Below are positions 9,638 to 46,734 of a stretch of 56,554 bases of DNA, in pieces. The position numbers and the translations under genes are program-made. How positions within the stretch are numbered: position 1 is the first letter of the stretch; each line of letters begins with the position of its first letter. The notes under the pieces were generated by a model. That model saw nothing but the letters and a program-made list of their open reading frames with translations. It made no database searches and was not told the origin of the DNA. Where the stretch lies: contig CAIXEA010000201.1 in assembly GCA_903918315.1 (NCBI GenBank), positions 1 through 56,554 of the forward strand, in the 5' to 3' direction. The stretch is from an uncultured Acetobacteraceae bacterium (GTDB lineage Bacteria; Pseudomonadota; Alphaproteobacteria; Acetobacterales; Acetobacteraceae).

Positions 9638-9724
9638 GGAACACACCTGGGCCGGGGCGCCATCATTGGCACCCCGGATGTGTATCGGTATTGCCCGGGC
9701 GGTGGAAGCGCAAGCCGTGCCGCC

Positions 9725-12542: not shown

Positions 12543-13549
12543 GCGCCACGCCTCGCCCGCGGGTCGATGGCGCGGTTCAGCAGGTCGATGCCCAAATTCA
12601 GCAGCACATAGAGTACCGCCATCGTCAGCACGAAGCCCTGCACGGGGGCGAAGTCGGACGCGATCAGCGCCTCCACCGCGTAGCTGCCGATGCCGGGCCA
12701 GGCGAAGACCTTCTCCACCAGCACATTGGCGCCGAGCAGGAAGGAGAACACCATGCCCAGCACCGTCACCACCGGTAGCAGCGCGTTGCGCAGGGCGTAG
12801 GTCACGACCACCGTCGGGCCGGACAGGCCGCTGGCGCGGGCGGTGCGAATGAACTCCGACCCCAGCACCGCCAGCATCGAGGCCCGCGTGATCCGCGCGA
12901 TGGGCGCCAGCGCGAACAAGGCCAGGGTGGTGGCCGGCAGCACGATCTGCGCCAGGGCGGCCCGGGCGGTGACCAGGTCGCGCGCGAGCAGGGCGTCGAT
13001 CAGAAAGAAGCCGGTGACCGCGTGCGGCGGGGTGGCGAAGGCGTCGAGCCGCCCGAGCGGGGCGGGCATCCAGCCGAGGCGGAAGTAGAACACATAGACC
13101 AGCAGCAGCCCGGTGAAGAACACGGGCAAGGAGACCCCGGCGGTGGCCACCACCCGGCAGATATGGTCGATCCAGGACCCCTGGCGCACCGCCGCCGCGA
13201 CCCCCAGCGGCACCGCGATGCCGATGGCCAGGATCAGCGCGCACAAGGTCAACTCGGCTGACGCCGGCAGGCGCGCGATGATCTCCGCCCGCACGGGCTG
13301 GCCGGTGGTCAGGGACATGCCGAGGTCGCCATGAACCAGCGCCACGCCATAGCGCCAGAACTGCTCCGGCAGCGGCCGATCGAGGCCCAGGCTGGCTTTG
13401 ATCTGGGCGATGGATTCCGCGCTGGCGGTGGGGCCGGCGAAATAGGTGGCGGTATCGCCGGGCAGCACCCGGGTCAGCAGGAAGGTCACCACCACCACGC
13501 CACAGAGCGTGGGGAGCGCGCCGGCCAGACGCAACAGGACGGCGCGCAT
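12539..13549 (-). CDS. Peptide-type ABC transporter permease (OppB/DppB-type)
   Basis: A 336-residue inner-membrane permease. The N-terminus has the usual OppB pattern: a first helix (VVVVTFLLTRVLPGD) and then the periplasmic stretch IKASLGLDRPLPEQFWRY. The EAA region near residues 215-235 reads ARITRASMLAVLGSEFIRTA. It starts 6 bases after the binding-protein stop and pairs with the OppC-type permease. No unusual features were seen. Confidence 0.92.
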   Translation of the reverse strand: MRAVLLRLAGALPTLCGVVVVTFLLTRVLPGDTATYFAGPTASAESIAQIKASLGLDRPLPEQFWRYGVALVHGDLGMSLTTGQPVRAEIIARLPASAELTLCALILAIGIAVPLGVAAAVRQGSWIDHICRVVATAGVSLPVFFTGLLLVYVFYFRLGWMPAPLGRLDAFATPPHAVTGFFLIDALLARDLVTARAALAQIVLPATTLALFALAPIARITRASMLAVLGSEFIRTARASGLSGPTVVVTYALRNALLPVVTVLGMVFSFLLGANVLVEKVFAWPGIGSYAVEALIASDFAPVQGFVLTMAVLYVLLNLGIDLLNRAIDPRARRGA

Positions 13550-13555
13550 CGCCGG

Positions 13556-15163
13556 TCAGGCGCTTTTGACGAGGAACCGGAAGTCGGGCTCCCGGCATGG
13601 CCAATAGGTGTAGCCGCTCATGTATTTCTGCATCGCGACGTCGTGGAAGGGCTGGCAGATCGGGATCATGGGGATCTCGTCCATGCCCATTTGCAGAAAG
13701 CCGCGTACCTGCTGTTCGTAGCTGGCGGCGTCGGGGGCGAAGCGGGCGCCGTCGATCAGCGCGTCCATCGCCTTGTTCTGATACGAGGCGACATTGAAAA
13801 TCGAATTGCGGCCATGGTAGTTCCAGAAGAAGAAGTAATCCGGCCAGTCCAGCCAGCCGCCGAAGCGGTTGATGACCATGGGCGCGGTTTTCTTGTTCAG
13901 CTCGCCGCGGAAATTCGCGCCGGGAATCTTGTTGATTTCGACCTTGATGCCGATCTGAGCGAGGCTTTCCTGCACCAGGACGGCCATGGGTTCGGCGATG
14001 GTGGCGGATCCGGCGTCGAAGACCAGCGTGGTGGCGATTTCGGTGCCGCCGGTGACGGCGGCGACCATGGCTTTGGCTTTTTCGATATTGGTGGAATAGG
14101 GGGAGGGCACCGGCCAGCCGATCTTGCCGACTTTTTCGGGCCCGCCGAACATTGGCACGCCGCGGCCGAACAGAGCGGCGGTCATGATTTTTTCATAAGG
14201 GATGGCCCAGGCAATGGCCTGGCGCAGGCGCACATCGTTGAACGGCGGGTTGGCGCTGTTCAGGGCGACGTACCAGATCGCATTCGGGACCGGAACGGCG
14301 GCGACCCGGATCTTGCCGGCCTCGGCCAGGTCTTTGAAGTCTTTCGGCGGCAGGCCGTAAGACATGTCGGCGTCGCCGCGTTCGATCAGCGCGCGGCGGG
14401 TGGAGGGGGAGGGGATGTCGCGCGCGATCACCCGGCGCAATTGCGGCAGGGGGCCGCATTTCCAGGCGTCGTTGCGGACGTAAATGGTCTCCGTCCCGGG
14501 TTTCCAGCTTTCCACCTTGAAGGCGCCGCTGCCGGCGACGTTGTTTTTCAGGTAATCCTTGGCCCAGGGGTCGCCGCCGGAATTGGCGATGGCGGTTTCG
14601 CTGTCGATCACGAAAGGAATGGTGACGCCGAGATCGGGCATGGTCAGCTTGTCGCGCCGGACGAAATCGATACGGAAGGTTTTGTCATCGACGGCGACGA
14701 ATTGTTCCGGCTTTTCCAGGCTGCCGGCGGCCATCTGGGTGGTGGCGAAGCCCCCGATGGACACCGCGCGATCCATCGACCATTTCACGTCCTTGGCCGT
14801 GACGGGGCGGTTGCTGTGAAAAGTAGCATCGTCACGCAGTTTAAACGTGCAGCTCATGCCGTCGCTGGCGATCTGCCAGCTGGTGGCCAGGCCGGGTTCG
14901 TAATCCTTGAGGTCATGGGTCATGATTCCCTCGGCGTAGGGAACCCGCTTGAAGCGCAGCAGCGTGTCATAGCAGTTGAGCGAGACGCCGTTGCTGGGCT
15001 GGGAGGCGCCGATGCCCTGCATATCCATGCTGTTGGGGCCGTATTCCTGCACCAATATCAGCGTTTCATTGCGGGTGGGCGCGGGCTGCGCGGCGGCGGG
15101 GCGGATCGCGGGTGCGGCCAGGGCGGCGCTGGCGGCGGTCTTGACGAACGTTCTGCGTTGCAT
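13556..15163 (-). CDS. Peptide-type ABC transporter substrate-binding protein (SBP_bac_5 family)
   Basis: A 535-residue periplasmic binding protein and first gene of the five-gene importer operon. The N-terminus has a twin-arginine signal (MQRRTFVKTAASAALAAPA, cleaved near AAAQP), so export is probably by Tat. The mature part follows the family 5 pattern: YDTLLRF near residue 65, LATSWQIASDGMSCTFKLRD near 93-112, and AKDVKWSMDRAV. Family members carry peptides, nickel, opines or sugars; the ligand is not evident. A toxin-antitoxin locus lies directly upstream and is divergent. Confidence 0.9.
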   Translation of the reverse strand: MQRRTFVKTAASAALAAPAIRPAAAQPAPTRNETLILVQEYGPNSMDMQGIGASQPSNGVSLNCYDTLLRFKRVPYAEGIMTHDLKDYEPGLATSWQIASDGMSCTFKLRDDATFHSNRPVTAKDVKWSMDRAVSIGGFATTQMAAGSLEKPEQFVAVDDKTFRIDFVRRDKLTMPDLGVTIPFVIDSETAIANSGGDPWAKDYLKNNVAGSGAFKVESWKPGTETIYVRNDAWKCGPLPQLRRVIARDIPSPSTRRALIERGDADMSYGLPPKDFKDLAEAGKIRVAAVPVPNAIWYVALNSANPPFNDVRLRQAIAWAIPYEKIMTAALFGRGVPMFGGPEKVGKIGWPVPSPYSTNIEKAKAMVAAVTGGTEIATTLVFDAGSATIAEPMAVLVQESLAQIGIKVEINKIPGANFRGELNKKTAPMVINRFGGWLDWPDYFFFWNYHGRNSIFNVASYQNKAMDALIDGARFAPDAASYEQQVRGFLQMGMDEIPMIPICQPFHDVAMQKYMSGYTYWPCREPDFRFLVKSA

Positions 15164-15997: not shown

Positions 15998-17524
15998 TTA
16001 CCCATGCCCCAGCATATGTTTGCCAATCTCCTGCGGGTCCGCGCCGGCCGCCGGCATTTCGTGCACGACCTTGCCGCCATGCATCACCACGATCCGGTCC
16101 GACAATTCCATGATCTCATCAAGGTCTTCGGAAATCAGCAGCACCGCGGTGCCGGCGTTGCGTGCCGCCATGATCCGGGCGCGGGTTTCCGCCACCGCTT
16201 TCACGTCCAGCCCGAAGCAGGGATTGGCCACGATCAGCAGGCGGACCACGCCGTCCAATTCCCGCGCCAGCACGCAGCGCTGCACATTGCCGCCGGACAG
16301 GACGCCGATGGGCACCTCGGCGGAAGGCGCGCGGATGCCATAGGCCTGGATCATGCTCCGCGCCCGCGCCGCCATGCCGGCGCGATCCAGCCAGCGGCGG
16401 GGGGTTTTGGTTTCGCCGCGGTCGAAGCTGCGCAGGGCCAGATTGTCCACCACGCTCATGCCCGGCACGCAGCCATTGCGTAATGGTTCCTCCGGCAGGA
16501 CGCGGACATGCAGCGCCTGGGATTCGGCGCGGGTCGCGCCATAGGGGGTGCCATCCACCGCGATCGTGCCGGATTGCATCGGTTGCTGGCCGCCGAGGAC
16601 CTCCAACAGATCCTTCTGCCCGTTGCCGGATACGCCGGCGATGCCGACGATCTCATGCGCGTTGACGGTCAGGTGATCGACGGACAGGCCGGCCCGGCCG
16701 CCATCATTGGCCGTTCGCAGATCCCGCACTTCCAACCGGACCTCATTCACCGGCGCGCCCAGCCGTTCCGGATCAGCGGGGGCATGCGGTTCGCCGATCA
16801 TCATCGCGGTCAGGTCGGTGGGGCCGAGGCTGCGCACGAGGCCGGCGCCGGCGAATTTGCCGCGGCGCAGAACCGTGACCTCATCGACGAATTTCGCGAC
16901 CTCTTTCAATTTGTGGGTGATGATGACGATGGTCAGCTGCCCGGAATGCGCGAGGTCGCGCACCAGGCCCAGCATTTCATCCGCTTCCTGCGGTGTCAGA
17001 ACAGAGGTCGGTTCGTCGAGCACCAGAAACCGGCGTTGCAGATAAAGCTGTTTGACGATTTCGGTTTTCTGCCGTTCGCCGGCCGCGAGCGATCCGGCCT
17101 CGACGGTCAGGGGGACTTTGAACGGCATGCCGCGCATGAAGTCTTCAAGCTGCGCCAGCTCGCTGCGCCAATCGATCACGCCGGGCACGTTGCGGCGCGC
17201 CATGACCAGGTTTTCGGCGACCGTCATCGATGGGACCAGGGTGAAATGCTGGTAGACCATGCCGAGACCGAGCGCATCCGCGTCCGCCGGGCGTTCGATC
17301 GTGACCTCTTTGTCATCGACCAGCAGCGAGCCCTCATCGGCGCGGTAATAGCCGAGCAGGCATTTCACCAGCGTCGATTTGCCGGCCCCGTTTTCGCCGA
17401 GCAGGCCGTGCACCGTCGCCGGATGCACTTTCATCGAAACGTCTGACAGGGCGTTGAAGGCGCCGAAGCGCTTGCCGATGCCGATGGCTTCGACGCCGAT
17501 GGCATGCATGGTCGCGTCGTTCAT
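15998..17524 (-). CDS. BMP-type purine/nucleoside ABC importer, ATP-binding protein (double NBD)
   Basis: A 508-residue cytoplasmic ATPase with two nucleotide-binding domains, as in sugar and nucleoside importers of the BMP/Rbs type. NBD1 has GENGAGKST, the signature region [16 protein letters not shown] and Walker [13 protein letters not shown]2 (from about residue 250) has the degenerate P-loop GVSGNGQ and [17 protein letters not shown]. Its Walker B lacks the usual acidic pair ([10 protein letters not shown]), which is normal for the second half in this family. The ATG at 17524 overlaps the BiuH-like gene's stop (ATGA). It ends the operon 20243-21364, 19123-20232, 18209-19123, 17521-18204, 15998-17524. 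The substrate is likely a purine, nucleoside or ureide by context. Confidence 0.9.
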
Positions 17525-18204
17525 GACAGGGCCGCCAGCAGCATGGCGCTGGTTCCCACGGCGCCGAACACACCGCCTTGCATTTTTACCATCTTGATGG
17601 CCGCCGCGTGGTTGCCGGGATCGGTCGCGCCGCAGCAATCCTCCACCAGCAGGCATTCGAAGCCGCGGTCATTGGCCTCCCGCATGGTGGTGTGGACGCA
17701 GACATCGGTGGTGATGCCGGTGAGGATGATATTGGTGATGCCGCGGGTGCGCAGGATCAGCTCCAGGTCGGTGGCGCAGAAGCTGCCCTTGCCCGGCTTA
17801 TCGATCACGATTTCCCCCGGCAGGGGGGCGAGTTCGTCGATGATCGCCCATCCCGGTTCGCCCCGCACCAGGATGCGCCCGCAGGGGCCGGGATCGCCGA
17901 TGCCGGCGCCGATACGGCGGGACCGCCAGCGCTTGTTGTCCGGCAGGTCGGACAGGTCGGGACGATGGCCTTCGCGGGTATGGATGATGGTGAACCCCGC
18001 CGGGCGCATCGCCGCCAACAGCGCTTTGATCGGTTCGATCGGCGCCCGGGTCAGCGACAGATCGTAGCCCATCGTGTCGACATAGCCGCCCTTGCCGCAG
18101 AAATCGGTCTGCATGTCGATCACGATCAGCGCGGTTTTCGCCGGCTCCAGGGAGCCGTCGAAGGGCCAGGGATAGGGATCAGCGTCGATGGTCTTTCCGC
18201 TCAT
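17521..18204 (-). CDS. biuH: Biuret amidohydrolase-like cysteine hydrolase (isochorismatase fold)
   Basis: A 227-residue cytoplasmic amidohydrolase. The Asp-Lys-Cys triad is intact: Asp30 (IVIDMQ), Lys136 (DKPGKGSF) and Cys169 (TTDVCVHTT), plus Gln209 (KMQGG). These spacings match, as I recall them, the D36-K142-C175-Q215 set of Rhizobium BiuH, and the surrounding text ([38 protein letters not shown]) is also very BiuH-like. BiuH converts biuret to allophanate and ammonia. It sits inside a BMP importer operon, between a permease (4-base gap) and the ATPase (ATGA overlap), so the imported compound or a product of it is probably the substrate. An upstream in-frame TTG at 18219 is a possible alternative start. 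No allophanate hydrolase gene is in the window. Confidence 0.75.
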
Positions 18205-18208
18205 GACA

Positions 18209-19123
18209 TCACCGTCCAATCGAGAGTTGCCCGGGCATGCCGCGCAGGGACTGCCCGCCCTTGGCGGTGATGATCAGCACCACCAGCGTGACGACATAGG
18301 GGGCGGCGTAGAACAGGTAGTAGCCCCAGGTGAAACCGACCGTCTGCAAGGACGGGCCCAGCGCCCCGGCGGCGCCGAACAGCAGGGACGCGTAGACGCA
18401 GTTGATCGGGTTCCAGCGGGCGAAGACCACGAGCGCGACGGCCATGAGGCCCTGACCGGACGACAGGCCCTCATTCCAACTGCCGGGGTAGCAGAGCGAC
18501 AGGAAGGCCCCGCCAATGCCCGCCAGCGCGCTGCCGCACCCCGTCGCCAGCAGCCGGGTGCGGTTGATCGGCAAGCCGAGTGCCAGCGCCGCGTCCTGGC
18601 TGTCGCCGACGATGCGGATGCGCAGGCCCATGCGGGTGGTGCGGAAAAACCAGTGCAGCGCGAAGGCCGCCGCGACGCCGAGGATGAACAGCGGGCTGAC
18701 CATCAGCGCATTGGCGAAGCGCGGGGACTCCAGCCAGAAGCCGAAGGGAATGCCGGGCAGCAGCGGCGCGCTCGGCTGCACATAGGGTTTGCCGAAGAAG
18801 AAGGCGATGCCGGTGCCCGCCAGCATGAAGGCGATGCCCATGGCGACGTCGTTGATGCGGGTCATCGAGCAGATCGCCCCATGCAGCCCGCCCAGCAGCA
18901 GCCCGGCGAAGGCCGCGGCCAGGACGCCGCACCAGGGGCTGCCGGTTTCGTAGGATGTCGCGTAGGCGACCATGGCGCCGAGGACCAGCGCGCCCTCATT
19001 GCCGAGGTTGATGCGGCCGGATTTCTCGGTCAGGCACTCGCCCAGGCTGACAAACAGAAAGGGTGTGCTGACGCGCAGGCTGCCGGCCAGCATGGCGACG
19101 ATGACGGTGGCGAGCGAGTCCAT
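18209..19123 (-). CDS. BMP-type ABC importer permease (second permease)
   Basis: A 304-residue inner-membrane permease of the BPD_transp_2 class (RbsC/nucleoside type), almost wholly hydrophobic with 8-9 membrane segments. The cytoplasmic loop [24 protein letters not shown] (residues about 27-50) is typical of the smaller permease in BMP importers. Its ATG at 19123 shares one base with the upstream permease stop (TGATG). Confidence 0.9.
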
Positions 19124-20232
19124 CAGCCATTCCCCCGCGGTTGGAACCAGCGGATGCGGCCATAGAAGGTCTCACTCGCCAGGATGGAGACGAAGATCAT
19201 GCCCTGCAGCACCTGCACGGTCGCATCCGGCAGACCCATGCGCCGTTGCAGCAAGCCCCCCGCGGCGCCGAGGCCGCCCAGCAGCACCGCCATGGGCAGA
19301 ATGGCGATCGGGTTGAACCGGGCCAGGAAGGCGATGAGGATGCCGGTATAGCCGTAGCCGGCGGCCAGGGAGGCATTGGCGCGGCCATACTCTGCGGCGA
19401 CCTCGATCGTGCCAGCGAGGCCGGCGCAGGCGCCGCCGAGCACGCAGGAGGCGATCATCAGCGCCGACACCGGCAGGCCCTGCAGCCTGGCCGCGCGTAG
19501 ATTGCCGCCCGTCACCCGCCCGGCGAAGCCGGCGCTGCTGCGAAACACCAGCACCCAGCAGGCGATACAGACGATGATGCCGACGGGAATGCCGGGATGC
19601 ACCTCCAGCACCGGAATGGCGCCGAGCATGTTGCCGTCGCCGATGCCATAGGTGGAGGGTTTGTTCAGGCTGGCGGGGTCGCGGAACGGACCCTCCACCA
19701 GATGGTTGAAGATCGCCATGCCGATATAAGCGAGCACCAGGCTGGCGATGGTCTCATTGACCCCCAGCCGGGCGCGCAGCCAGCCGGTGAGACCGATCCA
19801 AAGACCGCCCATGGCGGAGCCGGCCAGCGCCATGAGGGGGAGGACGATGAAGGGGCCGGCGCCGGCGACGGGCAGGGCGATCAGGGTCGCGGCCAGACCG
19901 CCGAGGACGACCGCGGCCTCCCCGCCGATGATGACCAGGCCGAGCTGACCCGGGAGCGCGACACAGAGCGCGGTCAGCAGCAGGGGCGCGGCCCGTTGCA
20001 GCGTGTTCTGCCAGGAGAACCAACTGCCGAAGGCGCCGCGCCAGACCAGGTCCACGAAGTCGAGGGGGGACTGGCCCAGGGCCAGGAGAAAGACAGAAAA
20101 GAGCGACGCGGCGACCGCCAGCGCCAGCATGGGCGCCACCAGTGCTTCCAGCAGATGCCGGATGGGGTAGAGCGCGTCCCCGCCTCCGGTCGCAACCGTT
20201 GGTGGGGTCGTGGCGATCACCGCGTCGGTCAT
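19123..20232 (-). CDS. BMP-type ABC importer permease (first permease)
   Basis: A 369-residue inner-membrane permease of the BPD_transp_2 class, the larger of the pair. It has many membrane helices and the conserved loop LPGQLGLVIIGGEAAVVLG near residue 95. The ATG at 20232 was chosen over an upstream in-frame start at 20298, which would lie inside the binding-protein gene. It starts 10 bases after the binding-protein stop. It pairs with the downstream permease and the double-NBD ATPase. Confidence 0.9.
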   Translation of the reverse strand: MTDAVIATTPPTVATGGGDALYPIRHLLEALVAPMLALAVAASLFSVFLLALGQSPLDFVDLVWRGAFGSWFSWQNTLQRAAPLLLTALCVALPGQLGLVIIGGEAAVVLGGLAATLIALPVAGAGPFIVLPLMALAGSAMGGLWIGLTGWLRARLGVNETIASLVLAYIGMAIFNHLVEGPFRDPASLNKPSTYGIGDGNMLGAIPVLEVHPGIPVGIIVCIACWVLVFRSSAGFAGRVTGGNLRAARLQGLPVSALMIASCVLGGACAGLAGTIEVAAEYGRANASLAAGYGYTGILIAFLARFNPIAILPMAVLLGGLGAAGGLLQRRMGLPDATVQVLQGMIFVSILASETFYGRIRWFQPRGNG

Positions 20233-20242
20233 GCTGTGTGTC

Positions 20243-21364
20243 CTATCCGATGGAGCCGAGAACGCCTTCCACGAGGTAGTTCTGCGATTCCAACTCAACG
20301 GCGGTTTCGACGAGGGCCTTGCCGGCGGGAACGACCATGTTGCCCTTGTTGTCCTTCAGCGGCCCTTTGAAGACCGAGAACCCGCCCTTGAGGATTTCGG
20401 CCTTCGCCGTATCGACCGCCTTGCGGCCGGCGGGGGAGAGGCCGGGTCCATAGGGGGACATCTTGACGAAGCCCTCCGCCAGGCCGCCGCGCACGAAGTT
20501 GCCGGGCGCCTTGCCCGCCTGGGTGTCGGCGATGAACTTCTTATAGACGGTGATCCAGTTCCATTCCGCGCCCGTCAGGTACCCTTTCGGCGCCAGCTTC
20601 GACTGATCCGCGTGATAGCCGCAGGCGAAGATCTTGCGGCGTTCGGCGGTTTCCATGATCACCTTGGGGCCATCGACATGGCAGGTGACGACGTCGATGC
20701 CCTGATCCGCGAGGCTGTTGGCGGCTTCGGCTTCCTTGACCGGCATCGACCATTCACCGGTAAAGATGACGGTGGTGGTGATGGACGGATCGACCGATTT
20801 CGCCCCCAGCGCGAAACTATTGATATTGATCAGCACCTGCGGGATCGGCTTCGCGGCGATGAAGCCGATCTTTTTGGATTTGGTGGCGTGGGCGGCGGCG
20901 ATGCCATTGAGGTACTGGCCCATGCCGATATAGCCGAAATAGGACCCGGTGTTCATCGGGTGCTTGTCCTTGGACCACAGCCCGCCGCAATGGCGGAACT
21001 GAACGTCTTTGTATTTGGCAGCCATTTTCAGCATGTACGGGTCGAAATAACCGAAGCTGGTCGGAAACATCAGCGAGGCGCCATCGAGCTTGATCATGCT
21101 CTCCATGGTTTTGGAGACGTCGTCGGTTTCCGGCACCTTTTCTTCTTCGAGAATTTTCACGCCGGGCATCTTCTTCAGGACGGCGGCGGCCTCGGCATGG
21201 GCCTGGTTGTAGCCGTAGTCGTCCTTGGGCCCGACATAGATGAAGCCGACGGTGAGGTCCTTGGCGAAGGCCGGCTGGGTGGACAGGCCGGTGGTCGCGG
21301 CGAAGCCCGCGGCCCCGAGGCCCGTCAGAGCGGTTCGACGCGAGATGAGTGAGTCGCTGGTCAT
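20243..21364 (-). CDS. BMP-family substrate-binding protein (basic membrane lipoprotein/purine nucleoside type)
   Basis: A 373-residue periplasmic binding protein, first in the five-gene importer/hydrolase operon. The N-terminus carries a Tat-type signal (ISRRTALTGLGAAGFAATT, cleavage near AFA). The BMP start of the mature protein, KDLTVGFIYVGPKDDYGYNQAH, is clear. The protein lacks a lipobox. Relatives bind nucleosides, purines or autoinducers. A sigma-54 promoter match lies about 90 bases upstream of the start. It is a distant paralogue of the second BMP protein at 31589-32671. Confidence 0.9.
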   Translation of the reverse strand: MTSDSLISRRTALTGLGAAGFAATTGLSTQPAFAKDLTVGFIYVGPKDDYGYNQAHAEAAAVLKKMPGVKILEEEKVPETDDVSKTMESMIKLDGASLMFPTSFGYFDPYMLKMAAKYKDVQFRHCGGLWSKDKHPMNTGSYFGYIGMGQYLNGIAAAHATKSKKIGFIAAKPIPQVLININSFALGAKSVDPSITTTVIFTGEWSMPVKEAEAANSLADQGIDVVTCHVDGPKVIMETAERRKIFACGYHADQSKLAPKGYLTGAEWNWITVYKKFIADTQAGKAPGNFVRGGLAEGFVKMSPYGPGLSPAGRKAVDTAKAEILKGGFSVFKGPLKDNKGNMVVPAGKALVETAVELESQNYLVEGVLGSIG

Positions 21365-21454
21365 ACAGTCTTCCCCTTGTTGGCGCTGTCTGTCGTTGGT
21401 CGATGAGGCATCGCAGAGCGCGCGGATGGGCCGCCATTGACCCTGTGTGTATGT

Positions 21455-21470
21455 TGCAAAGGCTGTGCCA
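21455..21470 (-). promoter_or_regulatory. Sigma-54 (-24/-12) promoter of the first BMP importer operon
   Basis: Reading the minus strand from 21470, TGGCACAGCCTTTGCA matches the RpoN consensus TGGCACG-N4-TTGCW at all but one fixed position, with the correct GG-to-GC spacing. Transcription would start near 21444, leaving a leader of about 80 bases before the ATG at 21364. Confidence 0.75.
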
Positions 21471-21530
21471 GGGTTTTGCCCGATATGACCATCTTCTGGG
21501 CATAAAAGTGCCGCGAATTTGTAATGGAAT

Positions 21531-21547
21531 TGGCTATAAAATAGCCA
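21531..21547. promoter_or_regulatory. Perfect palindrome, candidate activator site
   Basis: TGGCTATAAAATAGCCA is a 7-bp inverted repeat with a 3-base centre. It lies about 60-75 bases upstream of the minus-strand sigma-54 promoter at 21455-21470, a distance that suits an enhancer or repressor site. No protein can be named. Confidence 0.4.
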
Positions 21548-21717
21548 TACGAATTATAAATAACCAAAATAGATGGATTTTGAGAATGAAATGCCGAAAT
21601 ACAATCCGATTTCAGCGGGCGCGTTGCGCTGCCACACTGCTGTTCGGTGGTCAGGGTCCGTGATTGTTCGTGAATTAGGCAATTTAAACGCCGATGGCGG
21701 GTTGATCAGGCAAATTG

Positions 21718-21742
21718 GGTCAAAATAGACCATTATTTGGTC
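21718..21742. promoter_or_regulatory. GGTC/GACC/GGTC half-site array, candidate enhancer
   Basis: GGTC (21718), GACC (21728) and GGTC (21739) recur every 10-11 bases. The last two form the inverted repeat GACCATTATTTGGTC. The array lies about 90-113 bases upstream of the plus-strand sigma-54 promoter, the usual distance for an enhancer-binding activator. A related site is at 25844-25858. Confidence 0.4.
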
Positions 21743-21830
21743 ATTTTTCGGCGTATCGGCCGATTTCAGCCGTGCTGAGTGTGGCAAAATAGCATCATAC
21801 TGGCGTACTGATGTTCATTGTCCCGAAGTC

Positions 21831-21845
21831 TGGCATATCATTTGC
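21831..21845 (+). promoter_or_regulatory. Sigma-54 (-24/-12) promoter of the Tsx-like/puuD/uraDH unit
   Basis: TGGCATATCATTTGC matches TGGCACR-N4-TTGC with one mismatch (T for C at position 6) and correct spacing. The predicted start is near 21857, giving a leader of about 147 bases to the ATG at 22004. Confidence 0.65.
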
Positions 21846-22003
21846 GTAGTGGGTAGTCGTCTCTGCCAAAAATTCGGCAGTCTGTGGCGCGCAGCACGCG
21901 CGCCGCCAGCGCGGGCGCGGGGTCCGTGACGACGGTCAAAGCGAAGCCTCAAACCACGAGGGTGCGAGGCGGGGGTCAACAAGAACAGAAGGAAAGGCGG
22001 ACT

Positions 22004-22843
22004 ATGAAGCGTTTTCTCATGGCGGCACTGATCGCCCTGACGGCCAGCCAGGCCAAGGCCTATGACTTCGCTGACAACAGCGTGTCGCTGACTTATGGTC
22101 CCACCTACAGGGAGCCCTCGATCCAGGCCAGCATCCCGAAATACACACTGACGTTCACCCATTTCGATGCCGGCAAATGGGGCACCAATTTCATCAACAT
22201 CGACGGCCTCTTCTCCGATCGGCATGATCCATCCAAGGGATCCACCGGCGGCGCGGTCGAAGTCTACGCGATCTATCGCGGCAACCTCAGCGGCAATGCC
22301 GTGTTCGGCGGCACACCCTTCACCTTCGGTCCGGTGAAAGACATCCGGTTCGAACTGGGCGGCGATTTCAATACCAAGAATGACTTCTTCGCACCCGCCA
22401 AGAAGCTGATCGTCGCCGGTCCGAATATCGCCTTCGACGTGCCGGGCTACCTCAATGTCGGGCTCCATATTGCCCATGAATGGAACCACAACGGCATTCC
22501 CGGGGCGATCCGCAGCGAAGTGAGCTTCGACCCCACGTTCGAGATGGAAGTCGTGTGGATGCAGCCGCTGTCCTTCACCGGCCTGCCGCTGAAGTTCGAC
22601 GGATTCTTCAACCTCGTCGCGCCGAAGGGCAAGGACGGGTTCGGCAATCAGACCGCGACCGAAATTCTGACCCAGCCCCGCCTGGTTCTGGATGTCGGCG
22701 CGCTGGCGATGAAGAAACCCAATTTCATCGATGCCTATGTCGGCTATCAATACTGGATGAACAAGTTCGGTAACGACAGCAACATCACCCATGCCGGCGC
22801 CATCGCGCAGACGGTGTTCGTTGGCACCTCGCTCCACTTCTAG
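22004..22843 (+). CDS. Tsx-like nucleoside-specific outer-membrane channel
   Basis: A 279-residue outer-membrane beta-barrel protein. It has a clear signal peptide (MKRFLMAALIALTASQAKA) and alternating strands ending in a C-terminal phenylalanine (FVGTSLHF), the mark of outer-membrane insertion. Features resembling the Channel_Tsx/OmpK family are YGPTYREPSI near the N-terminus, the strand FTHFDAGKWGTNFINID and FGPVKDIRFELGGDF. Tsx proteins admit nucleosides, which fits a purine cluster. The ATG at 22004 has GGAAAGG upstream. A hairpin and 93 bases separate it from puuD. Another small porin family remains possible. Confidence 0.65.
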   Translation: MKRFLMAALIALTASQAKAYDFADNSVSLTYGPTYREPSIQASIPKYTLTFTHFDAGKWGTNFINIDGLFSDRHDPSKGSTGGAVEVYAIYRGNLSGNAVFGGTPFTFGPVKDIRFELGGDFNTKNDFFAPAKKLIVAGPNIAFDVPGYLNVGLHIAHEWNHNGIPGAIRSEVSFDPTFEMEVVWMQPLSFTGLPLKFDGFFNLVAPKGKDGFGNQTATEILTQPRLVLDVGALAMKKPNFIDAYVGYQYWMNKFGNDSNITHAGAIAQTVFVGTSLHF

Positions 22844-22864
22844 TTCGATCCGCGCCAACGCGAT

Positions 22865-22891
22865 CCCGGCACGGGCGCGCCCCGTGCCGGG
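22865..22891 (+). terminator. Strong hairpin between the Tsx-like gene and puuD
   Basis: An 11-bp perfect stem (CCCGGCACGGG / CCCGTGCCGGG) with a 5-base loop starts 21 bases after the Tsx-like stop. There is no T tract, so it may attenuate or protect the upstream message rather than fully terminate, allowing high channel and lower enzyme expression. Confidence 0.5.
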
Positions 22892-22936
22892 CCATCGCCG
22901 AACCATCCCCTGATCATTGCGAATGGCCACACGACC

Positions 22937-24154
22937 ATGATCCTACTCCGGTCGCTCGACTGGGCTATCCTGCTCGATTGGGCCAGTCTCCTGTTACGCT
23001 GGACCCACGTGATCGCCGGGATCGCCTGGATCGGCTCGTCATTCTACTTCATCGCCCTCGATGCCAGTCTCAGGCCCAATGCCCGGCTCGATCCGCGGGT
23101 CAGCGGCGATGCCTGGCAAGTGCATGGCGGCGGCTTCTACCAAATTCAGAAATACATGGTCGCACCGGAGTTTCTGCCCGGTCACCTGACCTGGTTCAAA
23201 TGGGAAGCCTATTCCACCTGGATCTTCGGTTTCGCGTTGCTGGTCACGACCTATTACGCCAATCCCGCGCTCTATCTGCTCGATGCCTCCGTCTCCAGCA
23301 TCGAACCGCTGGATGCCGTGCCGCTGGCGCTGTTCTCCCTGGTCCTGGGCTGGATCGCTTACGACCAGCTTTGCAAATCCCCCATCGGCGACAACACCGC
23401 CCGCCTGGCCTTCACGGGGTTCGCGCTGCTGACCCTGATCACCTTCGGGTTCTGCCATATTTTCAGCGGCCGCGGCGCCTTTCTCCAGGTCGGGGCGCTG
23501 GTCGGATCGATCATGGTGGGCAACGTCTTCTTCATCATCATGCCGAACCAACGCAAGACGATCGCCGAACTGATCGCCGGGCGCGAACCCAACCCGGCCT
23601 GGGGCAAGCAGGCGAAGCAGCGCTCGGTGCACAATAATTATCTGACGCTGCCGGTGGTGTTCGTGATGCTGAGCAACCACTATTCGTTCACCTACCAGAC
23701 GCGCTGGAACTGGCTGATTTTGACCTGCATTTTCGTGTCCAGCTTTATGATCCGGCATTATTTCAACACCATGCACACGGGGGCCGAACCCGATTGGCGG
23801 CTATGGCCGGCGGCGGCGGTGCCCATCGCGGGGGCGGCGCTGATCACCCTGGCCGGCACCTATGCGCCGCCATCCGCCGCTGGCGAAAAACCCGCCAGCT
23901 TCGCGGAAATCCGCTCGATCATCGACCAGCGCTGCCACACCTGCCACGCCGTGCACCCAACCTTCGCGGCTTTTTCCGATCCGCCCAAAGGGGTCATGTT
24001 CGACACACCGGCCCAGATCCGGCTCTATGCGAAACCGATCTACGAACAGGCGGTGAAAACACACACGATGCCGCTGAATAATCTGACAGAGATCACCGAT
24101 ACCGAACGGGGCGCCATCGGATCGTGGTTCAAAGCGGGGGCGAAACTCAATTGA
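22937..24154 (+). CDS. puuD: Membrane-bound urate oxidase (PuuD) with C-terminal cytochrome c domain
   Basis: A 405-residue inner-membrane enzyme that oxidises urate to 5-hydroxyisourate. It differs from cofactor-free uricase by having eight or so membrane helices (about residues 15-310) and a periplasmic c-type cytochrome domain that passes electrons to the respiratory chain. The N-terminal Urate_ox_N pattern is clear (WTHVIAGIAWIGSSFYF, GGGFYQIQKYMVAP). The haem site C333-H-T-C336-H337 is intact, followed by a Met in the TMPLNNLTE segment as a likely axial ligand. Length matches the family. The next gene overlaps its stop, so urate oxidation and the two following steps are translated together. 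Confidence 0.93.
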   Translation: MILLRSLDWAILLDWASLLLRWTHVIAGIAWIGSSFYFIALDASLRPNARLDPRVSGDAWQVHGGGFYQIQKYMVAPEFLPGHLTWFKWEAYSTWIFGFALLVTTYYANPALYLLDASVSSIEPLDAVPLALFSLVLGWIAYDQLCKSPIGDNTARLAFTGFALLTLITFGFCHIFSGRGAFLQVGALVGSIMVGNVFFIIMPNQRKTIAELIAGREPNPAWGKQAKQRSVHNNYLTLPVVFVMLSNHYSFTYQTRWNWLILTCIFVSSFMIRHYFNTMHTGAEPDWRLWPAAAVPIAGAALITLAGTYAPPSAAGEKPASFAEIRSIIDQRCHTCHAVHPTFAAFSDPPKGVMFDTPAQIRLYAKPIYEQAVKTHTMPLNNLTEITDTERGAIGSWFKAGAKLN

Positions 24155-25020
24155 ACACATCCGTTTTCGATCTGGCCGCGGTCAACAGCCTTGATATCGA
24201 GGCTTTTTCCGCCCGGCTGGGCGGCATATTCGAACATTCCCCCTGGGTTGCCCGCGCGGCCTATGCGGTGCGGCCCTTCCCCTCCATCGCGGTCCTGCAC
24301 GCGACCATGGTATCGGTGGTCGCCCATTCCGGTCCCGATCGCCAATTGGCGTTGTTACGCGCCCATCCGGAACTGGCCCGGCCCGCCTCGCTGACCGCGG
24401 CGTCCGCATCCGAACAAGGCGGCATGGGGCTCGATCGCCTCAATGCCGAGGAAGCGGCTTTGTTTGATGCGCGTAATGCCGCCTATCGTGAGAAATTCGG
24501 GTTCCCGTTCATCATCGCCGTGCGCGGTCAAAAAGACCGCGCTGCCATCCTGGCCGCGATGACCGCCCGGCTGGACCACACGGCGGAAGAGGAAATCGCC
24601 GCCGCCTTGGCCGAAGTCGCGAAAATCGCCCGTTTCCGTCTGGATGATCTGATCGTCGCGGACAAGGCGCCGGGGCCGGCGGCCGGACGCCTGACGGTGC
24701 ATGTGCTCGATACGGCGGAAGGAAAACCCGCCGCCGGGCTGCAACTCAAGCTCTACCGCCTGGCGGATGGCACGCGGATCCGGCTCGGTATCTGGCGCAC
24801 CAACGCGGATGGCCGCTGCGAGGCGCCGCTGCTATCGGGCGCGGCGCTGTTGGCTGGCACCTATGAGGTTGTGTTCGATATTCTCGGCTGGCGCGGCGTG
24901 CCCGATGTCGGCTTCTATGATCTGATTCCGATCCGGTTCCGCGTCACCGACCCGGCGGCGCATTATCATATTCCGCTGCTGCTCTCGCCGTTCGGATACA
25001 GTACATATCGGGGGAGCTGA
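24151..25020 (+). CDS. Fused OHCU decarboxylase (UraD) and 5-hydroxyisourate hydrolase (UraH)
   Basis: A 289-residue bifunctional enzyme for the two steps after urate oxidation. Residues 1-165 form the UraD domain with His72 (RAHPEL) and Glu88 in the SASEQGGMGLD motif. Residues about 178-289 form the transthyretin-like UraH domain: LTVHVLDTAEG at its start, TNADGRC, and the C-terminal HYHIPLLLSPFGYSTYRGS with the diagnostic YRGS end. UraH makes OHCU from hydroxyisourate and UraD makes S-allantoin, so the domain order is the reverse of the reaction order, as in plant allantoin synthase. The likely start is TTG 24151, overlapping the puuD stop (TTGA); GTG 24124 is an alternative. Confidence 0.9.
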   Translation: MNTSVFDLAAVNSLDIEAFSARLGGIFEHSPWVARAAYAVRPFPSIAVLHATMVSVVAHSGPDRQLALLRAHPELARPASLTAASASEQGGMGLDRLNAEEAALFDARNAAYREKFGFPFIIAVRGQKDRAAILAAMTARLDHTAEEEIAAALAEVAKIARFRLDDLIVADKAPGPAAGRLTVHVLDTAEGKPAAGLQLKLYRLADGTRIRLGIWRTNADGRCEAPLLSGAALLAGTYEVVFDILGWRGVPDVGFYDLIPIRFRVTDPAAHYHIPLLLSPFGYSTYRGS

Positions 25021-25029
25021 TCCCCCCGA
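25008..25029. terminator. Bidirectional hairpin at a convergent junction
   Basis: TCGGGGGA pairs with TCCCCCCGA (one bulged C) across a 5-base loop, overlapping the stop codon of the UraD-UraH gene and lying just before the stop of the convergent hydrolase gene. Its position suits a shared terminator. Confidence 0.5.
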
Positions 25030-25033
25030 TCCC

Positions 25034-25720
25034 TCAGGACTCCAAGGCCGCGACCAGGTCTTCACTGTCCCCGACCCAGCCGAAAATGCCGCCTTGGGCT
25101 TTGATCATGGCGAGGCCCATCTCCTGGAATTCCGGGAAATAGGACCCGACACAGTCGGCGGGGACGAGGCAGTCATAGCCGCGGTCGTTCGCCTCCCGCA
25201 CGGTGGTGTTGACGCAGACCTCGGTGGTGACACCGGTGACGACCAGGCGTGTGATGCCGGCGTTTTGCAGGATCGCGTGGAGATCGGTGGCGAAAAACGC
25301 GCCTTTGCCGGGCTTGTCGATGATGGGTTCGCCAGGCGCGGGACGGAGTTCGGGGATGATGTCATGCCCGGCTTCGCCGCGAACCAGAATGCGGCCCATG
25401 GGCCCGGGATCGCCAATACGGGTGGCCCCGCCGCCGCGGATCTTCTTCGCCAATGGCAGATCAGACAGATCGGGGCGATGGCCCTCCCGCGTGTGGATGG
25501 CCAGCAGACCGGCTCCCCGCCATGCTGCCAGAAGCCGGCGGTTGGGTTCGATGACCCGGCGCAGCTGCGACACGTCGTTGCCCAACATCGCGCCAAACCC
25601 GCCCGGTTCCAGAAAATCGCGCTGCATGTCGATGATGAGCAAAGCCGTGCAAGCGGGTTCGAAGGCGAATGGATAGGGGGCAGCGGCGACGGTCAGGGTG
25701 GGTGATGACGGAAGGCGCAT
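25034..25720 (-). CDS. Second cysteine hydrolase of the BiuH/TrtA group (possible triuret hydrolase)
   Basis: A 228-residue isochorismatase-fold amidohydrolase, a clear paralogue of the BiuH-like protein at 17521-18204. The triad is intact (Asp31 in LIIDMQ, Lys136 in DKPGKGAF, Cys169 in TTEVCVNTT), with Gln209 (KAQGG). The substrate loop differs: DFLEPGGFGAMLG replaces [13 protein letters not shown], and the region after HRPDLSDLP is shorter and changed. Such a pair fits triuret hydrolase (TrtA) working before BiuH; that assignment is inference. Other ureide or carbamoyl substrates are possible. The ATG at 25720 has GGAG 7 bases upstream, and a sigma-54 promoter match lies 38 bases upstream of it. 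Confidence 0.7.
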   Translation of the reverse strand: MRLPSSPTLTVAAAPYPFAFEPACTALLIIDMQRDFLEPGGFGAMLGNDVSQLRRVIEPNRRLLAAWRGAGLLAIHTREGHRPDLSDLPLAKKIRGGGATRIGDPGPMGRILVRGEAGHDIIPELRPAPGEPIIDKPGKGAFFATDLHAILQNAGITRLVVTGVTTEVCVNTTVREANDRGYDCLVPADCVGSYFPEFQEMGLAMIKAQGGIFGWVGDSEDLVAALES

Positions 25721-25757
25721 GGCTTGGCTCCTGCATTCGGCCTCTGCCCGTGGTGAC

Positions 25758-25772
25758 GCAAGGCACATGCCA
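25758..25772 (-). promoter_or_regulatory. Sigma-54 (-24/-12) promoter of the second cysteine hydrolase
   Basis: On the minus strand from 25772, TGGCATGTGCCTTGC matches TGGCACG-N4-TTGC with one mismatch and exact spacing. The start would be near 25746, only about 26 bases before the ATG at 25720. Confidence 0.7.
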
Positions 25773-25858: not shown

Positions 25859-26058
25859 GATATTAGTACATAAAAAATGCATGATGATTCCTGATACGAA
25901 AAATACGCTCAATAATGTCTCTGTTTTATGCAAATTCAATTGCCTGGCCGCGGCCGAACCCCTATCGTTCCGAATAACAAGTGGGCACAGAAGGGCATCA
26001 TGCGACGCCAGCATTCGCCAGCAATGATCGGCACGCCAACCACGGACCGTCGCGTCTG

Positions 26059-27501
26059 ATGCATGACGCACCGGTCTTTTTGCTGGGGGACACAATCCGC
26101 CATCTGCAGGATGTCGCGCCCACGCTGACCGTGCTGGATTATCTTCGCACCATCGAAAAAATGCCTGGCACCAAGGAAGGCTGCGCGGAGGGCGACTGTG
26201 GCGCCTGCACCGTCGTGCTGGGGGAGGTCCAGGCCGGCGATGCCATCCGCTACCGCGCGGTCAATGCCTGCGTGCTGTTCGTCCCGGCTCTGGACGGGAA
26301 GCAGCTCCTGACCGTGGAACATCTCGCCGGTGCCGATGGCGCCTTGCATCCGGTGCAGGCGGCGATGGTGGACCATCACGCCTCGCAATGCGGGTTTTGC
26401 ACGCCGGGCTTCGTGATGTCGCTCTATGCGCTGTATGTCTCGGGACAACCGGCGGATCGGTCCGCGGTGAATGAGGCTCTGTCCGGCAACCTCTGCCGTT
26501 GCACCGGCTATCGCCCCATCGTCGATGCCGCCCTGGCGTCCTGTGCGGCGCCGGAGGTCCGCTCGGCTGCCACGACCGCGTTGCGGCTGCGCGGGTTGGC
26601 GAGCGACGGGATGGCGCCGATCGCGCATGGCGGGCAGACGTATTGGGCCCCGCGCAGTATTGGCGCGCTCAGCCAGATCTTCGCGCTGCACCCCGATGCG
26701 GTGCTTCTGGCCGGTGGCACGGATATCGGCCTTTGGGTCACCAAGCAGCATCGCACGCTGTCCGCGATCATCGCGTTGGATGGGGTGGCCGGGCTTGATA
26801 CGATCGAATCCACGGCCGAAACGCTCATGATCGGCGCCACGGCCCGGTATGAAGAGGTGATGCCGGCGCTTGGGGCCCATTACCCCGACGTCGCTGCTTT
26901 GTTCGGCCGCATCGGCTCCCGCCAGATCCGCAATCGCGGCACGCTTGGCGGCAATATCGGCAATGCCTCCCCGATTGGGGACACGCCGCCGGCGTTGATC
27001 GCGCTGGGGGCGGCGGTGGTGCTGCGCCAGGGGGACACGCAGCGATCGATGCCGTTGGAGGCGTTTTTCCTCGGTTACCGAACCACCGCGTTGCGCCCGG
27101 GGGAATTCATCGAACGCATTGACGTGCCCTTGCCCCGGCCGAACCAGGCGGTCCGCTGCTACAAGGTCGCCAAGCGTTTCGATCAGGATATTTCCGCGGT
27201 TTGCGCCGCCTTCAGTCTGGAACTGGCAGAGGGCGTGGTGACGCGGATCCGCATCGGGTTCGGCGGCATGGCCGCGACGCCCATGCGGGCGGAGCGGGTG
27301 GAGCAGGCGCTATTGGGCCAGCAATGGACCGAGGCCGTGGTGATGCAGGCGATGACCGTGATGGACAGCGCCTTCATCCCGCTGTCCGACCCGCGGGCGA
27401 GCGCGAATTATCGGGCCCGGGTGGCGCGCAATCTGCTGTTCAAATTCTTCCTCGAAACCAGCGACGCGGCGCCGGCGACGCGCCTGACGGTCCCGGTATG
27501 A
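26059..27501 (+). CDS. xdhA: Xanthine dehydrogenase small subunit (2Fe-2S and FAD domains)
   Basis: A 480-residue subunit that passes electrons from the molybdenum centre to FAD and NAD+. The first 2Fe-2S cluster has Cys42, Cys47, Cys50 and Cys71 (GCAEGDCGACTV). The second has Cys111, Cys114, Cys146 and Cys148 (QCGFCTPG, LCRCTGYRP). The FAD domain from about residue 195 has LLAGGTDIGLWVTKQ and RNRGTLGGNIGNASPIGD. The ATG at 26059 is chosen by homology; the ribosome site is weak, and an in-frame upstream GTG exists at 25981. It is first gene of xdhA-xdhB-xdhC-guaD with overlapping stops and starts. Confidence 0.93.
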   Translation: MHDAPVFLLGDTIRHLQDVAPTLTVLDYLRTIEKMPGTKEGCAEGDCGACTVVLGEVQAGDAIRYRAVNACVLFVPALDGKQLLTVEHLAGADGALHPVQAAMVDHHASQCGFCTPGFVMSLYALYVSGQPADRSAVNEALSGNLCRCTGYRPIVDAALASCAAPEVRSAATTALRLRGLASDGMAPIAHGGQTYWAPRSIGALSQIFALHPDAVLLAGGTDIGLWVTKQHRTLSAIIALDGVAGLDTIESTAETLMIGATARYEEVMPALGAHYPDVAALFGRIGSRQIRNRGTLGGNIGNASPIGDTPPALIALGAAVVLRQGDTQRSMPLEAFFLGYRTTALRPGEFIERIDVPLPRPNQAVRCYKVAKRFDQDISAVCAAFSLELAEGVVTRIRIGFGGMAATPMRAERVEQALLGQQWTEAVVMQAMTVMDSAFIPLSDPRASANYRARVARNLLFKFFLETSDAAPATRLTVPV

Positions 27502-44379: not shown

Positions 44380-44403
44380 ATGCTGGCCCCGGTCCCACTG
44401 TCA

Positions 44404-45800: not shown

Positions 45801-45859
45801 AACGCTTGTTACCAAGCTCGCCGCCGGGCAACCAGAATCGAATAGGAATCGGTGCTGTG

Positions 45860-46638: not shown

Positions 46639-46714
46639 CGATGCCTCCTTCTGGAGTCCAGAGAGAACCGCCAGAGATCAGAAACATCACCGGACGCCGC
46701 ATGCTTCGCTACAC

Positions 46715-46734
46715 GGGGAACACCGGACGCTTAC
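46715..46734 (-). repeat. Right terminal inverted repeat of the IS66 element
   Basis: On the minus strand this reads GTAAGCGTCCGGTGTTCC and two more C, with the conserved GTAAGCG terminus of IS66. It lies 77 bases upstream of the tnpA start. No partner was found on the left side. Confidence 0.7.

Follow-up and report, generated by a model that had tools for sequence, protein, structure and literature searches.

Why should genes that appear to break down triuret and biuret lie among genes for urate oxidation? The question is raised by the DNA analysed here, a stretch of 56,554 nucleotides (56.6 kb) from an uncultured Acetobacteraceae bacterium, referred to below as the window. The initial annotation had described two Asp-Lys-Cys amidohydrolases flanking urate oxidase genes. 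Both ORFs were recovered where it had placed them, both contained the triad, and PuuD and a single UraD-HiuH fusion ORF were situated between them. We consider it likely (probability about 0.7) that the stretch constitutes one nitrogen-limitation regulon, or superlocus, joining urate oxidation to triuret and biuret salvage.

Gene content of the locus

Judged by sequence, the superlocus comprises a BMP-type transporter operon containing biuH, a divergent Tsx-like/PuuD/UraD-HiuH run, trtA, the xdh genes and an 8-oxoguanine deaminase gene.

9725..15163 (-): putative Opp/Dpp-type ABC transporter (PF08352 in 9725-10723 and 10708-11835)
15998..17524 (-): putative ATPase of BMP-type ABC transporter, fifth gene of the biuH operon (ORF and place in alphaproteobacterial biuH operons; inferred start)
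17521..18219 (-): biuH, predicted biuret hydrolase, fourth gene of the ABC-transporter operon (NF050097, residues, tree)
18209..19123 (-): putative ABC permease, BMP type (conserved gene order BMP-perm-perm-biuH-ATPase)
19123..20298 (-): putative ABC permease, BMP type (conserved gene order; true start inside the ORF)
20243..21364 (-): BMP-family substrate-binding protein, first gene of the biuH operon (PF02608, 129.6 bits)
21456..21470 (-): sigma-54 -24/-12 type core TGGCACAGCCTTTGC, upstream of the biuH operon (exact match)
21831..21845 (+): sigma-54 -24/-12 type core TGGCATATCATTTGC, upstream of tsx-like/puuD/uraD-hiuH (exact match)
22004..22843 (+): Tsx-like outer-membrane channel (predicted structure)
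22937..24154 (+): puuD, predicted membrane urate oxidase with c-type haem motif (PF06181, CHTCH)
24124..25020 (+): uraD-hiuH fusion, OHCU decarboxylase and HIU hydrolase (TIGR03164, TIGR02962)
25034..25720 (-): trtA, predicted triuret hydrolase (PDB 6XIX, residues, tree)
25758..25772 (-): sigma-54 -24/-12 type core TGGCATGTGCCTTGC, upstream of trtA (exact match)
25981..27501 (+): xdhA, xanthine dehydrogenase small subunit, divergent to trtA (TIGR02963, 619.1 bits; cut-off 467)
27495..29792 (+): xdhB (TIGR02965, 1217.6 bits; cut-off 849.5; ORF open from 27201, start approximate)
29789..30616 (+): xdhC (TIGR02964, 276 bits; cut-off 161.6)
36263..37603 (+): 8-oxoguanine deaminase (NF006055, 660.3 bits; cut-off 532)

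The trtA ORF is open to 25768, and the start at 25720 was preferred because of the sigma-54 type site at 25758-25772.

PuuD matched PF06181 (Urate_ox_N) with 418 bits and carried the haem motif CHTCH at residue 333, although Pfam itself gave no cytochrome c domain. These features identify it as a predicted urate oxidase with a Urate_ox_N domain and a C-terminal cytochrome c. The UraD-HiuH fusion exceeded the cut-offs of both TIGR03164 (179.8 bits) and TIGR02962 (113.6 bits) and contained PF09349 and PF00576 domains. Pfam gave no match for ORF 22004..22843. Its AlphaFold2 model (mean pLDDT 78.5) had Tsx, 1tlw, as the top PDB match (TM 0.63-0.72, 15-16% identity), and the protein is predicted to be a Tsx-like outer-membrane channel. 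Agrobacterium fabrum likewise has a membrane urate oxidase with a cytochrome c domain, which reportedly raises no peroxide stress; unlike the window, the available part of that account mentions no triuret genes (PMC4562309).

The two amidohydrolases and the predicted route to ammonia

The first amidohydrolase, ORF 17521-18219(-), passed the NCBI cut-off for biuret amidohydrolase (NF050097, 426.5 bits against 370). The triad and 11 further published positions were all as in 6AZO (14/14), the discriminating positions showed the consensus Y, Y, S, D, T and V, and the protein fell within a 35-row clade with 6azo and 6xjm (97/86). The curated HMM, the active-site residues and the tree thus support its assignment as a biuret hydrolase, and the proposed match to BiuH across the active site was borne out.

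The second, ORF 25034-25720(-), scored 268.8 bits with NF050097, under the cut-off. Its closest solved relative was PDB 6XIX, which is TrtA (PMC7948467). The triad and 11 further published positions were again fully retained (14/14 as in 6XIX), and the TrtA consensus F35, N41, A134, E160, Y187 and I205, plus Q202, was complete. Changes at F35, N41, Y187 or Q202 are described as leaving less than 10% of TrtA activity (PMC7948467). The ORF lay within a 61-row clade with 6xix (97/97), on a branch separate from the assayed Herbaspirillum enzyme. Residues and tree support a triuret hydrolase, as the initial annotation had tentatively proposed.

Both placements come from a second tree of 97 rows, kept from 101 after removal of L003, L172_9220, L228_13479 and L091_9366; the last had BiuH letters despite a TrtA best-hit label. 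A first quick tree was distorted by very long rows, and TrtA did not form one clade there. With characterised BiuH, TrtA and RutB included, each ORF fell in its own clade and RutB lay outside. A RutB identity was rejected on scores as well (TIGR03614, 126.5 and 106.9 bits against a cut-off of 377.95), and the residues also argue against it: E. coli RutB agrees with TrtA at the triad and at none of the other 11 positions. Nicotinamidase was dismissed on weak scores far under the cut-off.

The remaining enzymes were located elsewhere in the genome. An allophanate hydrolase had been described as missing. This held for the window, within which no AtzF was found, but not for the genome, where a search detected one on another contig (G000:C25:84001-85611; 643 bits against a cut-off of 511), together with atzG and atzE. 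AtzE scored 662.9 bits against 461, AtzG was recognised by PF13318, and AtzEG is a known carboxybiuret hydrolase (PMC6219798). Urea carboxylase exceeded the cut-off in none of the 33 genus genomes, and a role of AtzF in urea carboxylase breakdown was rejected accordingly. A route to ammonia is supported, because the genome encodes both AtzF and AtzEG and no urea carboxylase is over the cut-off in those 33 genomes.

Under nitrogen shortage, sigma-54 and NtrC would turn on the units together. Urate would be converted to allantoin via PuuD, HiuH and UraD, while triuret and biuret would either be imported or arise through attack of reactive oxygen or nitrogen species on urate. TrtA would convert triuret to carboxybiuret and ammonia. 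Carboxybiuret could then lose CO2, the reaction of the decarboxylase TrtB, to give biuret, the presumed substrate of BiuH, or be deaminated by AtzEG. Both branches would lead to allophanate, which AtzF would split to ammonia and CO2.

The enzymes match, by residues and tree, those of the TrtA/BiuH/AtzF pathway described in Herbaspirillum sp. BH-1 and Rhizobium leguminosarum (PMC7948467). R. leguminosarum resembles the window in having a BMP-type transporter operon with biuH inside. Relative to that published pathway, the window has puuD, uraD-hiuH and xdh in between and trtA outside the transporter operon, and its genome adds AtzEG as a second branch from carboxybiuret. The atzDGEHF cyanuric acid operon of Pseudomonas sp. 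ADP also places AtzEG and AtzF downstream of carboxybiuret, but there carboxybiuret comes from AtzD, whereas here it would come from TrtA (PMC6219798). No AtzH (DUF3225) was found among the eight scanned neighbour ORFs of atzFGE, in contrast to atzDGEHF.

Linkage and predicted sigma-54 promoters

In seven of the ten genus genomes with biuH, its operon and the tsx-like/puuD operon are arranged face to face. In five of ten extracted loci trtA adjoins xdhA; in the other five it is not beside urate or xdh genes, and in a further 11 trtA genomes puuD is absent or on a different contig. A congener, G704, has a triuret cluster without puuD. Of 14 genomes with puuD, 7 have atzF no more than 25 kb away from it, and atzF, atzE and the 8-oxoguanine deaminase gene are adjacent in six congeners. 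The Opp/Dpp-type transporter neighbours the biuH operon in G698 and G704 as well, and in some members of the family it is found next to trtA or atzEF. Six congeners retain the adjacency, and in five of them PuuD identity is down to 65-70%. Five flanking window genes (PBP1C, alpha-2-macroglobulin and three from 47.5-56.5 kb) had no match in the extracted genus loci, a comparison that included further stretches beside the G480, G683 and G579 clusters.

Outside the genus, urate linkage was rejected as a general feature of trtA. PuuD, UraD, HiuH or XdhB matches were found in none of the 80 named trtA loci (the best 80 of at least 571), many of which had flanks shorter than 10 kb; among uricases, this comparison covered PuuD. 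One of these loci, L083, is G704 itself (same contig, 47,760 bases, same layout) and counts with it as one observation, so that the 80 include one congener; further named loci likewise come from genomes already covered by the family search. BiuH, AtzF or AtzE lay beside trtA relatives in 48 of these best 80. Operons with the order BMP-perm-perm-biuH-ATPase-trtA and no urate genes made up 20 of 39 class loci, and the R. leguminosarum BMP operon is annotated in the same order, with formamidase and atzD in between. Weaker exceptions were UraD 9.5 kb from trtA in G283, and PuuD at 16 kb in G361 and 31 kb in G051. Stray single matches were XdhA in L161, XdhC in L113, UraD in L189 and XdhB in L169 (26%) and in L080 and L081 (26-27%). 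As far as seen, trtA and urate genes are neighbours in part of this genus only.

The sigma-54 promoter type often serves genes turned on by nitrogen shortage, and the consensus used was TGGCAY-N5-TTGC. The window contained four exact cores where 0.37 were expected, and none of 100 shuffles reached four. Three were at the correct place and strand, upstream of the biuH operon, tsx-puuD and trtA; the fourth (18571-18585) lies inside a permease gene and was taken as chance. With RpoN present in the genome, consensus, place and strand mark these three units as having predicted sigma-54 promoters. Exact cores preceded the biuH operon in 9/9 testable genus loci, the tsx-puuD operon in 11/11, trtA in 7/10 (one mismatch in the remaining three), atzF in 6/14 and BMP2 in 2/4. 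The atzF of the window's own genome, on another contig, also has a sigma-54 type core. No exact core was found at 130 starts of 16 other marker genes in the genus loci, or at any of 11 xdhA starts, and across the class trtA has its own site in just 2 of 38 cases. The reversed motif matched none of 36 upstream regions, a set that took in only those six atzF loci with a site; 27 of the 30 others were positive. Permuted motifs matched 0.03 regions on average; one near-identical permutation, matching part of the same sites, reached 15/36 and the next one three. The new observation is the sigma-54 promoter type common to the biuH, tsx-puuD, trtA and some atzF units.

Reports from other bacteria touch on both linkage and control. 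In ammonia oxidisers, trtA-trtB-biuH-atzF-bmpA-nupABC contigs, beside allFGHK in comammox, likewise bring together the triuret route and late steps of purine degradation; the purine genes there are for oxalurate, whereas the window carries urate-forming and urate-oxidising steps (PMC12625717). The terms "urate oxidase" and "xanthine dehydrogenase" do not occur in the main text of that paper. Sigma-54 and NtrC target urate oxidase and xdh in Burkholderia cenocepacia, while xdhA here has no site; biuret genes are not named among those targets in the available text (PMC5491218). Growth of an ntrC mutant of that species on biuret and on uric acid was improved rather than impaired (PMC5491218), which counts against the nitrogen-regulon explanation.

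Origin of the triuret

The link of triuret and biuret genes to urate genes is real: some members of the genus retain it, and both gene sets have the same promoter type. The two islands might nevertheless be chance neighbours from an ancestor within the genus, with no functional tie. This would fit an adjacency seen in part of the genus only and in none of the named loci (the best 80 of at least 571), as well as the G704 cluster lacking puuD. We regard it as unlikely, given one promoter type on all three units, an adjacency kept despite PuuD divergence to 65-70% identity while the tested flank genes are unshared, and a second joining, in which atzF and atzE lie with purine genes in no fewer than seven genomes, of which G699 and G701 have no biuH match. 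The second enzyme could also act on another purine ureide or amide, such as an oxalurate or ureidoglycolate derivative, with AtzEG and AtzF serving that route. It does adjoin uraD-hiuH, the assayed TrtA belongs to a different branch, and some genomes with this branch give only one match in the search. The retention of all 14 published TrtA positions, including F35, N41, Y187 and Q202, the company of BiuH, AtzF or AtzE in 48 of the best 80 of at least 571 named loci, and the known activity of AtzEG on carboxybiuret (PMC6219798) make this reading improbable.

A more serious contender, to which we give somewhat less than even odds, is that the biuret and triuret genes serve outside sources such as fertiliser impurities or cyanuric acid, and that the urate genes share the locus as another nitrogen source under the same control. 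It overlaps with the regulon explanation and denies the urate origin of triuret. The urate-free operons in 20 of 39 class loci, which can include atzD as in R. leguminosarum, are in its favour, and shared sigma-54 control by itself would favour clustering. However, AtzD is absent from the window and the extracted congener loci, and shared control alone would not require triuret-route genes to have entered the purine locus of one genus repeatedly. Nitrogen recovery from oxidatively damaged urate had been proposed initially; of this, the urate linkage stood, but a damaged-urate substrate would account for the clustering only as well as shared nitrogen-limitation control does. Peroxide stress, moreover, is reportedly not increased by PuuD (PMC4562309). 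In its strong form, purine breakdown would routinely yield triuret as oxidants in or around the cell attack urate, and TrtA, BiuH, AtzEG and AtzF would be a second, oxidative-damage branch of urate catabolism, wired into the purine locus under common sigma-54 control. We find this rather doubtful; if true, the 8-oxoguanine deaminase would, in parallel, give oxidised purines an entry point.

As the natural source of triuret, the discoverers of TrtA hypothesised oxidised uric acid (PMC7948467). In this genus the genes for urate oxidase, triuret hydrolase and biuret hydrolase occupy a single locus, which in seven genomes also takes in the one for allophanate hydrolase, and most of the units have the same type of promoter. 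This arrangement lends genetic support to the oxidised-uric-acid idea and offers a concrete place to test it. The regulon explanation also predicts that triuret and biuret breakdown would be under nitrogen control, which bears on the use of triuret as a slow-release fertiliser.

Identity of the two hydrolases

Two related hydrolases flank the urate oxidase gene puuD, as the initial annotation had described:

17521-18219, minus strand, first isochorismatase-like hydrolase (biuH), ORF in the window
25034-25768, minus strand, second isochorismatase-like hydrolase (trtA), ORF in the window

The first protein scored 426.5 bits on the NCBI equivalog model for biuret hydrolase (cut-off 370), with 6AZO and its variants as top solved relatives. 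The second reached 268.8 bits on this model, below the cut-off, and its top solved relative was 6XIX, the triuret hydrolase TrtA of Herbaspirillum (available text of PMC7948467). A RutB identity was rejected for either protein, since both scores fell far below the RutB cut-off. Catalytic and discriminating positions were taken from the available text of PMC7948467 and transferred by alignment. The first protein carried the BiuH letter at all 14 positions, and the second carried the TrtA letter at all 14 (D24, F29, F35, N41, E72, K129, K132, A134, T158, E160, C162, Y187, Q202 and I205). Among relatives in the fetched loci, the exact six-letter TrtA pattern occurred in 167 of 186 TrtA-labelled rows and the exact BiuH pattern in 53 of 70 BiuH-labelled rows, the labels being best-hit labels of which a few are wrong, with a few rows distant.

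A carefully built 97-row tree contained a single TrtA clade (61 rows, 97/97) with the window TrtA and the solved reference, and a single BiuH clade (35 rows, 97/86) with the window BiuH and the solved references. E. coli RutB fell outside both. TrtA did not form one clade in a preceding quick tree that included distant rows. The match of the first protein to biuret hydrolase throughout its active site was borne out, and the second is retained as a candidate triuret hydrolase. The assayed Herbaspirillum enzyme is not part of the supported 16-row branch to which the window TrtA belongs; we therefore infer the substrate of the window enzyme from sequence.

The initial annotation had regarded the allophanate hydrolase as missing and proposed a genome search for an AtzF-type enzyme. 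The window indeed lacks one, but the search found it on contig C25 of the same genome (643 bits, cut-off 511), followed downstream by AtzG (PF13318) and AtzE (662.9 bits, cut-off 461). Carboxybiuret, the TrtA product, could therefore have two exits, through biuret and BiuH or directly via AtzEG, whose handling of carboxybiuret is described in the available text of PMC6219798. Allophanate hydrolase is also known to partner urea carboxylase, which exceeded its cut-off in none of the 33 genus genomes.

Gene order and its conservation

The biuH gene is the fourth of a five-gene minus-strand operon encoding a BMP-family binding protein (PF02608), two permeases, BiuH and an ATPase. Facing away from this operon on the plus strand are genes for a beta-barrel protein, PuuD (PF06181, CHTCH motif at residue 333) and a UraD-HiuH fusion, followed by trtA (minus) and xdhABC. 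The beta-barrel protein had no match in a Pfam scan; the best structural match of its AlphaFold2 model (mean pLDDT 78.5) was the nucleoside channel Tsx. Beyond xdhABC lie two deaminase-like ORFs (PF00383), a second BMP-type transporter, whose binding protein gave a weak NCBIfam match, and an 8-oxoguanine deaminase (36263-37603). Because this deaminase scored well over its curated cut-off (660 versus 532 bits), oxidised guanine may feed the urate cluster. The right flank (43316-54225) looks mobile, with an integrase-core gene, an IS66 transposase, a YgjP-like metallopeptidase, and type I restriction-modification genes assigned by reading of the sequence only. At 2814-9646, a penicillin-binding protein with a BiPBP_C domain adjoins a bacterial alpha-2-macroglobulin.

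Within the genus, trtA-type genes occurred in 21 of 33 genomes and puuD in 14. The biuH operon faced the tsx-like gene and puuD on a single contig in 7 of 10 biuH genomes; a contig break fell at this junction in G687 and G688, and puuD lay away from the operon in G704, where atzE and atzF adjoin puuD. xdhA adjoined trtA in 5 of 10 fetched genus trtA loci (G000, the window's own genome, and G480, G697, G698 and G702). In the 11 trtA genomes with unfetched loci, puuD was absent or on a different contig. For five window genes outside the cluster, the fetched loci of the genus gave no match, although they extended 40 kb to left and right in G480 and took in additional sequence from G683 and G579. 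The joining of urate and triuret/biuret genes is real, and it survived a fall of PuuD identity to 65-70% in five of the six congeners keeping the adjacency. The atzF gene was present in 25 of 33 genus genomes and in all 14 with puuD, in seven of which it lay within 25 kb of puuD on the same contig. In six genus genomes atzF, atzE and the 8-oxoguanine deaminase gene were adjacent to each other; in one of these, G579, the order was xdhABC-deaminase-atzF-atzE-8-oxoguanine deaminase. In G683 (L249:4254-12268), the xdh genes are separated from atzF by a pyruvate:ferredoxin-oxidoreductase-like gene, a redox partner and an NMT1-type ABC transporter.

The order BMP protein-permease-permease-biuH-ATPase, then trtA, recurred in 20 of 39 class loci. 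R. leguminosarum has the same BMP-transporter/biuH/trtA order, but with formamidase and atzD in between, and nitrifier contigs with bmpA-nupABC, biuH, trtA and atzF are already published (available text of PMC12625717). In the named set (the best 80 of at least 571 trtA loci, flanks up to 10 kb; one, L083, on the same contig as genus member G704), BiuH, AtzF or AtzE was near trtA in 48 loci, PuuD, UraD, HiuH and XdhB in none, and a weak XdhA match in one. The closest case outside the genus was G283, with UraD 9.5 kb off and purine-type genes in between. As far as seen, the urate/triuret joining is confined to the window's clade. An Enterobacter hormaechei plasmid typed as mobilizable carries, flanked by IS1 elements (L244:1659-13400), atzF, formamidase and biuH genes together with a BMP-type transporter and a trtA-like gene.

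Many trtA loci (e.g. L164:9005-10585, L231:4482-6062, L050:10417-12024) encode a membrane protein of ~510-590 aa, whose gene immediately follows trtA in 62 of the 80 named loci (again the best 80 of at least 571). In the window, by contrast, uraD-hiuH abuts trtA, and a search of its genome for a homologue, run without a positive control, gave no match. Sequence searches of Pfam, NCBIfam and PDB with the members tried gave no hit of useful score, and plasmid records label relatives 'regulator', 'xanthine permease' or hypothetical. The AlphaFold2 model (pLDDT 85.6) resembles the transporters SVCT1, SLC26, UraA and UapA. The protein is a probable triuret permease, apparently of no described family.

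Sigma-54 type promoter sites

The sigma-54 -24/-12 type consensus is TGGCAY-N5-TTGC. The window has four exact sites against 0.37 expected, a number reached in 0 of 100 shuffles. The biuH operon, the tsx-puuD operon and trtA are each preceded by one of these sites, oriented towards the gene. Across the genus loci, exact matches stood before the binding-protein gene of the biuH operon (BMP1) in 9/9, the tsx-like gene in 11/11, trtA in 7/10 (the remaining three with one mismatch), the binding-protein gene of the second transporter (BMP2) in 2/4 and atzF in 6/14. None was found at 130 starts of 16 other marker genes (atzF apart) in these loci, and xdhA had none (0/11 starts); 31 of the 35 exact sites in genus loci were accounted for. 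Chosen upstream regions held a site in 33 of 36 cases, or 27 of 30 without the atzF loci picked for having one, and never in reverse orientation. Permuted motifs matched a mean of 0.03 regions, and one near-identical permutation matched 15. Exact sites were also present outside the genus: BMP1 10/20 and trtA 2/38 in the class set, trtA 10/53 and atzF 5/22 in the family set, and trtA 18/80 and atzF 3/28 in the named set (best 80 of at least 571 loci).

RpoN is encoded in the window's genome. The sigma-54/NtrC regulon of B. cenocepacia includes urate oxidase and xdh, but growth of an ntrC mutant on biuret and uric acid was improved in that species (available text of PMC5491218). We found no report in the open-licence literature of sigma-54/RpoN control of biuret hydrolase or biuret use.

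Source of triuret and overall reading

Triuret arises from urate by peroxynitrite in published chemistry, as cited in the available text of PMC7948467. Foremost among the points that we infer here is urate as the origin of triuret. PuuD itself is an unlikely source of the oxidant, because it reportedly does not raise catalase, whereas soluble uricase in its place does (available text of PMC4562309). Shared nitrogen control could by itself explain the clustering. In the accessible portions of the open-licence literature we found no description of a urate oxidase gene next to trtA or biuH, and the term 'urate oxidase' occurs nowhere in the main text of PMC7948467 and PMC12625717.

Gene identities, order, conservation and promoter sequences were established at the sequence level. 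They are best accounted for by a nitrogen-limitation superlocus, whose units would be co-expressed and, acting on the substrates assigned to them, would couple the oxidation of urate to the salvage of triuret and biuret.
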